Positions 4,329-22,505 of a stretch of DNA of 22,505 nucleotides are shown in pieces. The stretch is from a virus: IMG/VR virus record IMGVR_UViG_3300035698_006047, positions 1 through 22,505 of that record. One strand, 5' to 3'. Made by a program: the position numbers and the translations under genes. Each line of letters begins with the position of its first letter. Positions within the stretch are counted from its first letter, which is position 1. The notes under the pieces were generated by a model, which saw only the letters and a program-made list of their open reading frames with translations, was not told the origin of the DNA and searched no databases.

Positions 4329-5521
4329 CACAGGTATTACCGAGCACCGCCGAGGTAACCGCAAACCTGGTCGCCCAACTAGAGACAGAGCTTGCGCAGA
4401 CTGTACCCTGGCTGCCTAAAAACGCCCTGCGCGTGCTGTGCAAAGCTATAGCCGGCGTGTTTACCCTGCTTTACAAATACCTTGGGTACATGACGCTACA
4501 GCAGTTCGTTAAAACCGCACAGTACGCTGACACGGACGTTAACGGCCGAAAGCTAAACCCCTTACTGTTTTGGGGTCAGCTGATCGGGGTGGGGCCTCCC
4601 GCTGCAGCGACTAACGCAGTGCTAACCATCGACGTGACGGTCACCACCCAAACTGGGCAGCTAAACGTAAATACGCAGCTCCGGAACGCGTCAAACGGCG
4701 TCACGTACTTGACGCTCGCCTCGGTGCTTCTTAACGCCGCCACGGTCTCGGTGCAGGTCCGCGCGTCGCAAGACACGGCGGGGGGCAGGGGAGAGGGGGT
4801 GGTGGGCAACTTGAACCCCGGCGCTGTGGTAACCTTCGTTAACCCCCAGTCGAACGTAAGCCAGGCCACCACGGTGACCTCGCAAGACACGACCGGCGCA
4901 AACGCAGAGGCCGTGGAGGTGTACCGCCAGCGCATTATTGACAGGTTCCAAAAGCGGCCCGAGGGCGGTGCCCCTGCGGATTACGAGGCGTGGGGCGAAG
5001 AGCTAACCGGCATCGTGAGCGTGTACCCGTACACCTCGCCGTGTCCCGGCCAAGTCGACCTATACGTCGAAGCTACGCCCGCGAGCAGCGGCAGCCCCGA
5101 CGGGAACCCGACCACCGCACAGCTGCAAGCCGTACAAGACGCGACACAGTTAAACGTGTCGGGCCTCGCCAGTAGGCGCCCGATTGGCGCGCTCGTGAAC
5201 ACCTTCTCGATTAACCGCCTACCGTTTAACGTGCAGATCGTTTCACTCGTAGCTGACGACCTCGCCACGCTAACCAGCCAGATACAGCAAGCCGTCGACG
5301 AGTACATGGCCGGCCGCGAGCCGTTCATACCGGGCTTGTCAGCCCTCCCCCGCAAGGACCGAGTAACACAAACCGCGCTCGGTGGAATCGTCGAGGATCT
5401 TGTTAGCGCTGCGGGTGGAACATTTACCGCCGTGAGGCTACTATCAGGCACCACAGTCGTGCCGGTGTATACCCTCGGTGCGGGCGAGAAAGCAAAAACG
5501 GGGGCGATTAGTTACGTATGA
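4325..5521 (+). CDS. Baseplate wedge protein, Mu gp47 / gpJ-like
   Basis: 398 residues, ATG 4325 overlapping the preceding stop by 4 bp. The family pattern for baseplate J-like proteins is present: a helical N-terminus with KNALRVLCKAIAGVFTLLYKYLGYM, then the WGQLIGVGPPAAATNA region, a beta-rich middle with QDTTGANAEAVEVYRQRIIDRFQKRPEGGAPADYEAWG (residues ~190-230; this Y-R-x-R-I and G-A-P-x-D-Y signature is typical), and a C-terminal VTQTALGGIVEDLVSAAGG segment. The protein bridges wedge and tail-fibre attachment. In Mu and P2 it is followed directly by gp48/gpI; here a propeller protein gene comes between. Confidence 0.88.
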   Translation: MTQVLPSTAEVTANLVAQLETELAQTVPWLPKNALRVLCKAIAGVFTLLYKYLGYMTLQQFVKTAQYADTDVNGRKLNPLLFWGQLIGVGPPAAATNAVLTIDVTVTTQTGQLNVNTQLRNASNGVTYLTLASVLLNAATVSVQVRASQDTAGGRGEGVVGNLNPGAVVTFVNPQSNVSQATTVTSQDTTGANAEAVEVYRQRIIDRFQKRPEGGAPADYEAWGEELTGIVSVYPYTSPCPGQVDLYVEATPASSGSPDGNPTTAQLQAVQDATQLNVSGLASRRPIGALVNTFSINRLPFNVQIVSLVADDLATLTSQIQQAVDEYMAGREPFIPGLSALPRKDRVTQTALGGIVEDLVSAAGGTFTAVRLLSGTTVVPVYTLGAGEKAKTGAISYV

Positions 5522-7386
5522 CAATCACGATAAACAGCGCACTAGACGACGCACGCCTGGGCGAGGTGGTTGCGGCCGCTGGAGCAGGGTCTTACATAAT
5601 CTTATACGGCAACGACAAGCCCGCACAGTTCGGTGGGGTGGGCGTTGAGCACACCACGCGGGGCGAGTTACAGGCCCCACACTGGGGCGCGGTCGCTGCC
5701 GGTGTGGTTGACTCGTCCCCCTTCGCAGACGTGACCGTAACCGAATACGGGGCGCTTAAGTGGTTTAGAGTTTACGGCCCTGGCGGCGTCTCGGTTCTGG
5801 AGGGCACCGTCGGCGGCCCCGGCTCGGGCGCAGGCGTGGAGGTGGCCCAAACGGGCGGCTTTACCCCCGGCCAGGTCGTGACGATAAGCAGCATTCGTTT
5901 AACCGAAACACCCGCGCTGTATGACAATCAGAGCACCGTATCGCCAGCCGTGCAGGATGCCCGCCTAGCGGTCGTGTGGACAGCCATAACCACGGGCGGG
6001 GGTGACGCTAACGTCGAGTTATTCACAGGCACTCGGCCTGCCAATGGCGGGGCCGCAGGTGTCGGCGCGTCGGCATCGTTCGACCTAGCCCAGCCGGATT
6101 TTTCCGCCCCATCCGACGAGGGGTACACAGACACCGGACCACGGGGGCCAGAAAGCGCGAGCGAAGCGGGAGCCTTAACGTGGTTCCGCCTGCAAGATCG
6201 CGCGGGGGGCTTCATCCTTGACGGCTCCGCAGGCTTGCGCGACTCGGACGCGGACCTAGAACTCAACACCAACAACATCGCGGTGAGCGACACGATTCGC
6301 CTTTCAGACATCGTTCTGCGGGAGCGGGGCAACGCGATACCCTTGCCGGTGTTCGGGCCAGAGGGCACGGGAGCGTTTAGTATACCGTCGTTGGCCGTAG
6401 CCGCCCTCGCAGTGCCCCCGAACGACGCGTCGGCATGGGCACCGATGCTTAAGGGCCTTAATTCGGGGAACACCGCCGCCACGTTTAGGTCTGCGGCGGC
6501 CGACGGCCTCGGCGTCTGGGTTGTGGTGGCGTCGTTCGGCTACGCTGCACGCTCGACAGACGGGGGCCTTACATGGCTGCCGCTAGTTAGGGGCCTTAAT
6601 TCGGGGAACACCGCCGCGTCATTTCAGAGCGTAGCCACCGACGGCCTCGGCGTCTGGGTTGCGGTGGCGTCGTTCGGCCACGCATCGCGCTCGACGGACA
6701 ATGGGGCTACATGGTCGCCACTGGTCAAGGGCCTTAATTCGGGGTCGGACACGGTCGACATATTCGGCATTACCGCCAGCGGGAGCGTTTGGGTGTCGGT
6801 AGCTTCGAGCGGGTATTGTGCACGCTCGGCGGACAACGGGGCTACATGGTCGCCACTTGAACAGGGCCTAAACTCAGGTTCTGTAAGCGCCGTCTTCGAT
6901 GGGGTTTGCACGAACGGCCTCGGCGTCTGGGTTGCGGTGGCGTCGTTCGGCTACGCTGCACGCTCAACGGACAACGGCCTCACGTGGGGGCCGATGGTCA
7001 GGGGCCTCAACTCTGGGAGCACAAGCGCGTTATTTACGGCTGTCGATATAGACGCGACCGGCGTTTTAGTCGCAGTAGCTTCGGGCGGCTACGCTGCACG
7101 CTCAACGGACAACGGCCTCACGTGGTCGCCACTGGTCAGGGGCCTCAACTCGGGGAGCGCAACAGGCTCAGTACTGGCAGTAGCGACCGACGGCCTCGGC
7201 GTCTGGGTCTCAGGGCATTTAAGCGGCTACGCATCGCGCTCGACGGACAACGGCGCTACGTGGCTTCCGATAGTTAGGGGCCTTAATTCGGGGAACACCA
7301 CGACGTCAATACTCGGTGTGGGGTCAGATTCGGACCGAGTCTGGGTTGCGGTTTTCCTGAACGGGTACGCATCTCGCTCAGCATAA
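5518..7386 (+). CDS. Putative receptor-binding tail protein: two WFR-type domains plus seven-bladed Asp-box beta-propeller
   Basis: 622 residues, ATG 5518 overlapping the wedge gene. Residues ~1-128 and ~140-277 are two divergent copies of one domain. Each begins with an A-x-x-D-A-R-L stretch, continues with a Y/F-x-G-x-x-x-P-A segment and ends with K/T-W-F-R...G...L. The same domain type occurs in the protein at 235-615. From residue ~302 to the end run seven repeats of 45-46 residues, each with GLNSG, a VWVAVAS-type strand, SGYAxRS, and an Asp-box, S-T-D-x-G-x-T-W. The seventh repeat stops before its Asp-box, while NDASAW at ~302-307 supplies the missing strand. Asp-box propellers occur in sialidases and in glycan-binding and phage tail proteins; no sialidase Arg triad is evident. 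Host-surface binding is inferred. Confidence 0.75.
   Translation: MTITINSALDDARLGEVVAAAGAGSYIILYGNDKPAQFGGVGVEHTTRGELQAPHWGAVAAGVVDSSPFADVTVTEYGALKWFRVYGPGGVSVLEGTVGGPGSGAGVEVAQTGGFTPGQVVTISSIRLTETPALYDNQSTVSPAVQDARLAVVWTAITTGGGDANVELFTGTRPANGGAAGVGASASFDLAQPDFSAPSDEGYTDTGPRGPESASEAGALTWFRLQDRAGGFILDGSAGLRDSDADLELNTNNIAVSDTIRLSDIVLRERGNAIPLPVFGPEGTGAFSIPSLAVAALAVPPNDASAWAPMLKGLNSGNTAATFRSAAADGLGVWVVVASFGYAARSTDGGLTWLPLVRGLNSGNTAASFQSVATDGLGVWVAVASFGHASRSTDNGATWSPLVKGLNSGSDTVDIFGITASGSVWVSVASSGYCARSADNGATWSPLEQGLNSGSVSAVFDGVCTNGLGVWVAVASFGYAARSTDNGLTWGPMVRGLNSGSTSALFTAVDIDATGVLVAVASGGYAARSTDNGLTWSPLVRGLNSGSATGSVLAVATDGLGVWVSGHLSGYASRSTDNGATWLPIVRGLNSGNTTTSILGVGSDSDRVWVAVFLNGYASRSA
6418..7383 (+). 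repeat. Seven in-frame propeller repeats, period 138 bp (one 135 bp)
   Basis: The landmark GGCCT of each copy lies at 6454, 6592, 6730, 6865, 7003, 7141 and 7279, giving periods of 138, 138, 135, 138, 138 and 138 bp. Copies share long stretches, for example the coding region for DGLGVWVAVASFG around 6502-6540, 6640-6678 and 6915-6952. This near identity points to recent duplication or gene conversion within the gene. Confidence 0.92.
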
Positions 7387-14352: not shown

Positions 14353-15198
14353 CTACTGGCCGGGCAGGTAGTTATGTGCCTGTGTTGGTGCTGCGTAGCC
14401 TTGCGGCGGTACGACCTGTGCTGGTGCTGGTGCTGGTGCTGCGTAGCCTTGCGGCGGTACGACCTGTGCTGGTGCTGGTGCTGGTGCTGCGTAGCCTTGC
14501 GGCGGTACGACCTGTGCTGGTGCTGGTGCTGCGTAGCCTTGTGGCGGTACGACCTGTGCTGGTGCTGGTGCTGCGTAGCCTTGTGGCGGTACGACCTGTG
14601 CTGGTGCTGGTGCGGAGTAGCCTTGCGGCGGTACGGCCTGTGCTGGTGCTGGCGGGGGGCCGCCGAATGCGGAGCCTACGTCGTAGCCACCTTTGCCCAG
14701 CTTCAACACAGGTGATTGCGCGCTGGCGATGATGCCGACGCCGTCAAGCCCGGCGGACACCCCACGGTTGCCGCCTGCATTAATTGAGTAGCAATGGCCT
14801 AGGATGTCGACCGTTTGCCCGGTGTAGAAAAGCGCGGCGTATTGCTGCGGGGCCAACTCGGCGTTATTCTCGTCGAAAACTTTAGGTGCGTACTGGCTTT
14901 TAAACGAGACGACGGCCCAGCCGTTGAACATCCCCTCGTACTCGGCAGCCGTCGCGGTGTTCACGGGCATACGCCCGCCGGAGGGTAGAATGCCTTTGAA
15001 TTCGGACGTTAGCAGCTTTTCTTCTGCGGCGGCGGTAAACTCGGCGACTTCGGGGTGGCCAGGGGGGAAAGCCACTTTGATCGACCACTTCGGCTTCCCG
15101 GCGTTTGAGCCCTGTTCCTGTATTTCGGGTGTCGTGACACTGTCCCACAACACGATTCCACGATGTAACTTGACGCGACCTTCTGCGTATACTGTCAT
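14353..15198 (-). CDS. ssDNA-binding protein (DUF2815/gp2.5-like) with repetitive uncharged C-terminal tail
   Basis: 281 residues; ATG 15198 has AAAGGA 9 nt upstream. Residues ~1-175 resemble the DUF2815 ssDNA-binding family related to T7 gp2.5: an early GIVLWDSVTTPEIQE, then KPKWSIKVAFPPGHPEVAEF, G-x-x-x-V-S-F-K-S-Q-Y-A-P-K-V, L-F-Y-T-G-Q-T-V-D, and GVSAGLDGVGIIASA. The last ~90 residues are a low-complexity tail with six PPQGY-S/A-A-P-A-P-A-Q-V/A-V units. They contain no charged residue and end ...HNYLPGQ. The acidic tip that recruits partners in gp2.5 and bacterial SSB is missing. Neighbours are the DUF2800 nuclease and polymerase, the usual partners of DUF2815 genes. Confidence 0.8.
   Translation of the reverse strand: MTVYAEGRVKLHRGIVLWDSVTTPEIQEQGSNAGKPKWSIKVAFPPGHPEVAEFTAAAEEKLLTSEFKGILPSGGRMPVNTATAAEYEGMFNGWAVVSFKSQYAPKVFDENNAELAPQQYAALFYTGQTVDILGHCYSINAGGNRGVSAGLDGVGIIASAQSPVLKLGKGGYDVGSAFGGPPPAPAQAVPPQGYSAPAPAQVVPPQGYAAPAPAQVVPPQGYAAPAPAQVVPPQGYAAPAPAPAQVVPPQGYAAPAPAPAQVVPPQGYAAPTQAHNYLPGQ
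14380..14660 (-). repeat. Six tandem 42-48-bp repeats in the SSB-like gene tail
   Basis: The marker GTAGCC (plus strand) recurs at 14395, 14443, 14491, 14533, 14575 and 14617, so the period is 48, 48, 42, 42 and 42 bp. The difference is a third copy of the hexamer GGTGCT in two units. This adds one Pro-Ala pair and looks like replication slippage. Confidence 0.92.
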
Positions 15199-21880: not shown

Positions 21881-22075
21881 TTAACTGTTCGCACAGCTCC
21901 AAAAAAAATCAGGCTTGCTTTTCTCTTTTATGCTTACCGCTATTTCTGGGTTTGCGAACTGATGTGTAAAGATTGGTCTCCCTAATAACTTTTCAGCGTA
22001 ACTGTGCAAGTCCTCAAATGGACCCAGCAGTATTCCAGTATACGCGCCGATAATTGCAGCTTCGTTTCTTGTCAC
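21881..22075 (-). CDS. Small conserved phage protein (YTGIL...LGRPxFTH family)
   Basis: 64 residues from GTG 22075, which follows AGGAGA by ~5 nt. The sequence TRNEAAIIGAYTGILLGPFE, then DLHSYAEKLLGRPIFTH and IKEKSKPDFF matches a widespread small phage protein with the pattern E-A-A-I-I-x-A-Y-T-G-I-L...F-x-D-x-H-x-Y...L-G-R-P-x-F-T-H (I recall it as a DUF7736-type family, name from memory). The function is unknown. It is 45 bp downstream of the cysteine-rich gene and probably shares its transcript. The DNA around it is less GC-rich than the rest of the window. Confidence 0.72.
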   Translation of the reverse strand: MTRNEAAIIGAYTGILLGPFEDLHSYAEKLLGRPIFTHQFANPEIAVSIKEKSKPDFFWSCANS

Positions 22076-22089
22076 AGTCTCTCCTATAT

Positions 22090-22119: not shown

Positions 22120-22505
22120 TTAAATCCCGCTGAAATCGCCATATTTTCCATAGCAGCCAGAGCAGCGAGAGCAGTCGGAGCAGCGAGAGCAGCCATAGCA
22201 GTCGGAGCAGCCGTAGCAGCCAGAGCAGCCAGAGCAGCCGTAGCAGTCGGAGCAGCCAGAGCAGCCGTAGCAGTCGGAGCAGCCAGAGCAGCCAGAGCAG
22301 TCGGAGCAGTCGGAGCAGCCAGAGCAGCGAGAGCAGCGAGAGCAGTCAGAGCAGCGAGAGCAGTCAGAGCAGCGAGAGCAGTCATAGCAGGCACTATTTG
22401 ACTCGTTTTGCTTTTCGAAATCGGGGTGTTTTTTTGCGAAATCTTCGCTTACACCGTTCTCGCCTTTGTCTTCTCGCTTAAGAAAATCGGTATATTTTTT
22501 GTATA
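22120..22505 (-). CDS. Cysteine-rich [S/Y]-[D/G/R]-C tripeptide repeat protein (5' end beyond window)
   Basis: The frame is open from the right edge (first complete codon 22503-22501) to TAA at 22122-22120, giving 127 C-terminal residues; the start lies outside. Residues 1-39 of the visible part are charged (YKKYTDFLKREDKGENGVSE, DFAKKHPDFEKQNESNSAC). Then come 26 consecutive tripeptides, each Ser or Tyr, then Asp, Gly or Arg, then Cys; the last part is YGKYGDFSGI. Cys is TGC in all 26 units, and unit differences are limited to Ser/Tyr, Asp/Gly/Arg and synonymous TCT/TCC changes. That is the signature of selection in this frame. I know CS-x repeat proteins with a similar N-terminus from phages and prophages, usually followed by a further conserved domain that is absent here. 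The function is unknown; metal binding or a disulfide-laddered solenoid are possibilities. Confidence 0.82.
   Translation of the reverse strand, partial: YKKYTDFLKREDKGENGVSEDFAKKHPDFEKQNESNSACYDCSRCSDCSRCSDCSRCSRCSGCSDCSDCSGCSGCSDCYGCSGCSDCYGCSGCSGCYGCSDCYGCSRCSDCSRCSGCYGKYGDFSGI
22152..22385 (-). repeat. 9-bp minisatellite, 26 perfect-length units
   Basis: Plus-strand units all begin AGCAG and vary only in the last four bases (ccag, cgag, tcgg, ccgt, ccat, tcag or tcat). There is no length change in 234 bp. A partial unit (AGCAG) follows. A 27-bp higher-order block (ccag-ccgt-tcgg) occurs twice in a row as units 9-11 and 12-14. The array encodes the tripeptide repeats of the cysteine-rich gene. 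Confidence 0.95.

Follow-up and report, generated by a model that had tools for sequence, protein, structure and literature searches.

The right edge of the 22,505-nucleotide viral stretch analysed here (the window) contains a gene for a protein in which cysteine occupies every third position of an uninterrupted array, and which by sequence comparison is a member of a large uncharacterised phage family whose array stands in place of known rod-like repeat domains. The N-terminal segment of the protein has 36 residues and is followed by SAC and then by 26 uninterrupted [S/Y]-[D/R/G]-C triplets (22386-22153); at the DNA level, TRF reports a 9-base array of 27 copies at 22148-22390. The gene, its parts and its downstream neighbour are arranged as follows.

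22120..22505, minus strand: cysteine-triplet repeat gene (frame 22503-22123, stop 22120-22122), with its 5' end beyond the contig edge
22396..22503, minus strand: N-terminal cap module A, YKKYTDFLKREDKGENGVSEDFAKKHPDFEKQNESN, defined by the 22-sequence alignment A1 and a leave-one-out profile
22153..22395, minus strand: array of 27 gapless x-x-C triplets (SAC, YDC and 25 [S/Y][D/G/R]C)
22123..22152, minus strand: ten-residue tail YGKYGDFSGI, followed by the stop
21881..22075, minus strand: DUF7736 protein (64 aa), the next gene downstream (Pfam PF24875, E = 1.9e-19)

As the initial annotation described, no stop interrupts the minus-strand frame between the window edge and its end at 22120, and its 26 triplets are unbroken; the exclusive use of TGC reported there for the cysteine codons extends to the SAC triplet (27 of 27). 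The 3' end of the gene is clean, since the DUF7736 gene, with a GTG start at 22075 and a ribosome-binding site (AGGAGAG) at 22079-22085, begins 44 bases past the stop. At the other end, the concern that a stop codon might lie shortly upstream of the edge without a start is answered by the closest relatives, whose N-termini read M(K)TKI(Y/F) and would place the window start codon about 4-6 codons past base 22505. We are thus highly confident from these alignments that the frame is a real gene from which only about 4-6 N-terminal codons are missing at the contig edge; when the neighbouring sigma-70-like gene was used as a query, no closer phage that supplies the missing start emerged.

A search of viral contigs for relatives gave 92 related stretches, 80 of which were kept, and relatives with the same frame and modules are present in at least 80 viral loci, with a gapless array in 77 of the 80. 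Complete arrays contain 6-64 triplets with a median of 31, loci L166 and L174 being short members with six and nine, and 17 of the 80 contigs end within the array, which is what assembly failure at this point would produce. The window protein falls within this SxC-array family, defined by a gapless array of at least six x-x-C triplets that are mostly S-[DGR]-C (27 here), and it carries the conserved type A cap, which leads into GCWNC or ACYDC; the window cap scores E = 2.2e-18 (999 shuffles) against a profile built from A1 with the window left out. The same cap is recovered in two groups of isolated phages, represented by Flavobacterium phage FL-1 and Vibrio phage 1.238. Pfam and NCBIfam give no match to the window protein, and none is found among known anti-phage defence families. 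PHROG 15341, which comprises phage SxC-array proteins, has an S-x-C array that matches window residues 38-117 at 4e-14, in line with the initial view that the relatives are phage and prophage repeat proteins with no established function. The PHROG 15341 profile spans 276 positions, whereas the window protein matches the array part only and lacks the C-terminal domain.

The absence of this domain was correctly recognised at the outset. A C-terminal HTCxTTHCRAGW domain or an alternative module is common in the family, and present in most relatives, but is not universal, being absent both from the window protein and from NVP1238B_69 of Vibrio phage 1.238 (L083); a profile of the domain (alignment A2) run against the six-frame translation of the window finds no copy in the gene or elsewhere. 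The idea that the repeat itself is the functional part in a protein without this domain holds to the extent of one independent parallel, namely L083, a complete gene of 124 aa with a cap, an array and a short end. Its cap is of the window type (52% identity in the A1 alignment), but its triplets mostly have D, K, E, W and G, not Ser, at positions 1 and 2, such that only the cysteine spacing is kept. L083 also carries the InterPro label IPR016133 (insect antifreeze).

Because a 9-base repeat is readily open in several frames, and two further Ala-rich open frames across the window array were indeed seen as first reported, the array could in principle be a non-coding minisatellite with the cysteine frame as a by-product. 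Individual arrays are nearly uniform in their 9-base unit, but the unit differs from array to array, with 18 combinations of Ser codon, Cys codon and third base of the middle codon, and the use of all six Ser codons and both Cys codons argues for selection on the protein and not on a DNA repeat. The other five frames are interrupted by stops in 12-62 of 146 arrays and the cysteine frame in none, although the latter is open by construction of the set whereas the other five were not so selected. The flanking modules are conserved in frame, and since the frame in relatives runs from cap through array into the C-terminal domain, the reading frame is settled in favour of the cysteine-containing protein, and not of a different frame conserved among relatives. 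We conclude with high confidence, from codon usage across arrays, that the array is selected at the protein level; the codon evidence and the conserved flanks together rule out the minisatellite, to which we attach a negligible probability.

The pattern of substitution within the arrays is strongly position-dependent. Cysteine is replaced 11 times beside about 4,560 Cys triplets (S five times, L three, A two, Y once, and never H or D), as against 104 minority synonymous Cys codons, and a single register break was found across arrays. D, G or R occupies the middle position in 87% of triplets, and nearly all of the variation is concentrated there: minority amino acids number 2,348 and minority third bases 209. 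All of these counts, those for Cys included, are of states and not of independent events, since triplets duplicate. Ala and Val are nearly excluded from the middle position even though they are one base away from the Asp and Gly codons. Closely related pairs illustrate how arrays diverge: the 600 bases on either side of the array are identical in L008 and L018, yet the arrays differ by three triplets and one substitution, and between L016 and L020, whose flanks match exactly (367 and 600 bases), the arrays differ by five triplets and local shuffling. Comparisons of this kind show that whole-triplet gain, loss and shuffling change the arrays quickly. No four-triplet (12-residue) periodicity of the middle residues was detected (ratio at lag 4 = 1.01), nor any preferred value of array length modulo 4. 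We also note three contigs that both start and end with parts of a cysteine-array gene, as if circular genomes were broken there: IMGVR_UViG_3300044802_000032 (L013/L037, in which the two array copies differ), 3300028841_000222 (L031/L099) and 3300002098_000051 (L040/L114).

The C-terminal modules connect the SxC arrays to better-known repeat proteins. In bacterial genomes searched with the HTCxTTHCRAGW domain, about half of the loci found have it behind SxC arrays, at least 15 have it behind pentapeptide repeats (PF00805), and one has it behind an LRR-like repeat (L177), with profile E-values of 1e-30 to 3e-44. Independently, in the PHROG library, PHROG 31265 matches the C-terminal part of L009, and the pentapeptide proteins match PHROG 31265 over most of their length. 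An LRWPV...IGCQxH module is situated behind SxC arrays in L023 and L200, behind pentapeptide repeats in two phages, Jess A of Caulobacter and Acba_16 of Acinetobacter, and behind a left-handed hexapeptide helix in one Vibrio phage (profile E-values for this module 3e-19, 2e-17 and 2.5e-11), and a GCFxGDLxxF module follows both an SxC array (L046) and hexapeptide helices. Three unrelated C-terminal modules thus stand behind both SxC arrays and solenoid-type repeats, from which the SxC array is likely to be a solenoid, and we have moderate confidence, on the strength of the shared modules, that it is a solenoid-equivalent rod. Two considerations count against this: the modules follow linkers and could be shuffled without a common fold, and the SxC and pentapeptide proteins have different N-terminal caps.

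The pentapeptide-repeat phage proteins (PHROG 31265, PF00805) have the HTCxTTHCRAGW domain in common with the SxC relatives and are similarly rich in D, G, R and S at outward positions, but they have a five-residue repeat, a Leu/Ala core and another cap, whereas the window protein contains neither pentapeptides nor this domain, with no A(D/N)LXX repeats and no PF00805 match in a Pfam comparison. The left-handed hexapeptide beta-helix phage proteins (PHROG 7964 and 5070, annotated as LpxA-like/acyltransferase) have two C-terminal modules in common with L023, L200 and L046, but have a six-residue repeat and no Cys array. A fourth small module, RYxIxNVQxTKEEYExxM, is present in the SxC-array proteins L013, L026, L032 and L080, whose cap (M..EEILxxTKxE) differs. 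Several individual loci are peculiar in other ways. L173 and L188, on contigs that binning assigned to Patescibacteria, encode SxC-array and pentapeptide proteins carrying the HTCxTTHCRAGW domain, and are possibly from phages of these bacteria or binning errors. In Flavobacterium phage FL-1 (L082, about 4560-4590) a frameshift within the HCRAGW motif, either a sequencing error or a real loss, puts the C-terminal domain out of frame with the array, and GenBank annotates pieces of the array protein as separate hypothetical proteins. In Vibrio phage 1.209.O (L202, 1155-1468), CRISPR spacers are annotated on the strand opposite a hexapeptide-helix repeat gene, and seem to be false calls made on the coding repeat of that gene itself.

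For the array, AlphaFold2 yields no confident structure in either of two proteins (pLDDT ~27-53), but in L009 the cap is predicted at pLDDT ~89 and a helical C-terminal domain at ~95. Foldseek and profile searches find no PDB relative of the HTCxTTHCRAGW domain, and its one good structural match in BFVD is a 74-residue protein that is probably a C-terminal fragment from phage FL-1. The initial annotation had entertained a solenoid with three residues per turn, which is not supported by the prediction (pLDDT ~27-39 for most of the array); a beta-solenoid-like rod in which every third residue points inward is better supported. Such a geometry is seen in beetle antifreeze protein, whose 12-residue coils have inward positions 2, 5, 8 and 11, i.e. 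every third residue (PMC8038014). In TmAFP (PDB 1ezg), a short-coil solenoid, two of the four inward positions are Cys (PMC8038014), and an x-x-C array on this geometry would have Cys at all four. TmAFP is secreted and disulfide-bonded, with a period of 12 and a Thr ice face, whereas the window array has neither a Thr face nor a 12-residue period, and distinct faces are not visible in the middle residues of the arrays because that periodicity is absent. The insect-antifreeze 12-residue repeat TCTxSxNCxxAx is likewise not found in the window protein, and only the every-third-residue spacing is common to both. The match to 1ezg in sequence falls short of significance (E = 0.026, with a strong composition bias), and together with the lack of a four-triplet period this makes the antifreeze likeness an analogy and not family membership.

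We favor a model in which the window protein, probably cytoplasmic, consists of a small cap at the N-terminus and, behind it, a stiff rod formed by the 27 x-x-C triplets. The rod would fold as a narrow beta-solenoid with Cys inward and Ser and D/G/R outward, as in beetle antifreeze protein, and the near-invariant thiols would hold the core by packing, disulfides or bound metal. Cysteine is more strictly kept than a packing core needs, which favors thiol chemistry, although our confidence in any particular chemistry or binding partner is low. In phages, the SxC rod occupies the slot otherwise held by pentapeptide, left-handed hexapeptide or LRR-like solenoids and would normally present a C-terminal module, which in the window copy has been lost or was never present. 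The D/G/R face, outward in this model, varies quickly by gain, loss and shuffling of triplets, and its variability suggests that it could be a variable binding surface used early in infection. A simple acidic DNA mimic is not favored, as the net charge averages only -0.18 per triplet and is positive in 19 of 138 arrays. Taken whole, with the cap, the stiff Cys-inward beta-solenoid rod, the variable outward surface and the early use, we give the proposal an even chance of being right. It is somewhat more doubtful that the S-x-C arrays constitute an undescribed solenoid class, a tripeptide counterpart of the pentapeptide repeats with a thiol per third residue in the core and a fast-varying D/G/R surface, which phages exchange for other solenoids within a shared repertoire of rod proteins that have C-terminal modules in common.

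There are other plausible models to consider. Known metal and Fe-S sites have the C-x2-C-x2-C spacing, and the array could be a metallothionein-like or poly-iron-sulfur scaffold for Zn, Cu(I) or Fe that derives its order from metal clusters; near-invariance of the cysteines and the failure of metal-free AlphaFold to find a fold for the array are consistent with this. The rare Cys replacements are S, L, A and Y but never His or Asp, the C-terminal modules are common to solenoids without structural metal, and the triplet number is free over 6-64 with no preferred length modulo 4, such that we find a metal-thiolate protein rather unlikely. Less probable still is that the array is a flexible, disordered thiol-rich segment that keeps the cap and the C-terminal module apart or acts as a redox buffer by taking up oxidants, even though the low AlphaFold confidence, the wide range of array lengths and the weak sequence constraint on the D/G/R position all agree with it. 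Disorder would not account for an exact period without slips, broken once, nor for the near-exclusion of Ala and Val from the middle position, and in the window and Vibrio 1.238 proteins the array is followed by little or nothing that it could link.

A further model concerns the window copy alone and is compatible with any of the others, in that this copy could be a decaying, non-functional remnant left after a C-terminal deletion. Its tail includes GKYGDF (in YGKYGDF), which is similar to the GKxGDF linker that a few relatives have ahead of the C-terminal domain, so that secondary loss of the domain is possible; most relatives with full ends keep the domain, and, the contig being a fragment, an intact second copy could exist outside it. 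Set against this, neither a stop nor a frameshift interrupts the array, the next gene follows 44 bases past the stop with a good ribosome-binding site, and a complete Vibrio phage protein has the matching architecture. We regard decay as unlikely, though less so than a flexible linker.

The genomic context of the array genes is suggestive of their role. A replication or recombination gene from the counted clusters (whose representatives are YqaJ, RecT, ERF, AAA_24, DnaB and DUF3799) is carried by 42 of 118 loci of at least 7.5 kb, a raw count uncorrected for background. The window gene is flanked by genes for a sigma-70-like protein, DUF5675, a helicase, DUF2800, an Enc34-type ssDNA-binding protein and a weak match to DNA polymerase A, and L035 has the helicase and next two genes in common with the window, with its SxC gene directly after them. 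These neighbours and the L035 synteny point to an early-region role for the array gene, which is likely but not proven. Two other repeats are present in the window. The Enc34-type ssDNA-binding protein (PF10991; gene 14353-15198, minus strand) contains a 42-base tandem repeat of 6.3 copies at 14375-14652 that encodes a Pro/Ala-rich (APAPAQVVPPQGYA)n tail, where such proteins often have an acidic tip. On the plus strand at 5518-7386, a 138-base repeat encodes BNR/propeller-like units of 46 residues (LNSGNT..GLGVWVAVASFGYAARSTDNG.TW), within a gene that is situated after the baseplate genes and probably specifies a tail fibre.

The literature searched offers no precedent for as many as 64 cysteines in a strict three-residue register in a protein that is probably cytoplasmic; the Cys repeat treated in PMC7379824 is eukaryotic and unrelated. 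The register is kept at the protein level across phages of very different base composition, and the shared C-terminal modules tie the array protein to pentapeptide, hexapeptide and LRR-like phage proteins. Through these modules, a structure determined for the window protein or for another short member, L166 for instance, would inform a whole class of unexplained phage early-region genes, and would tell whether a thiol-cored or a metal-cored tripeptide solenoid is present in nature.
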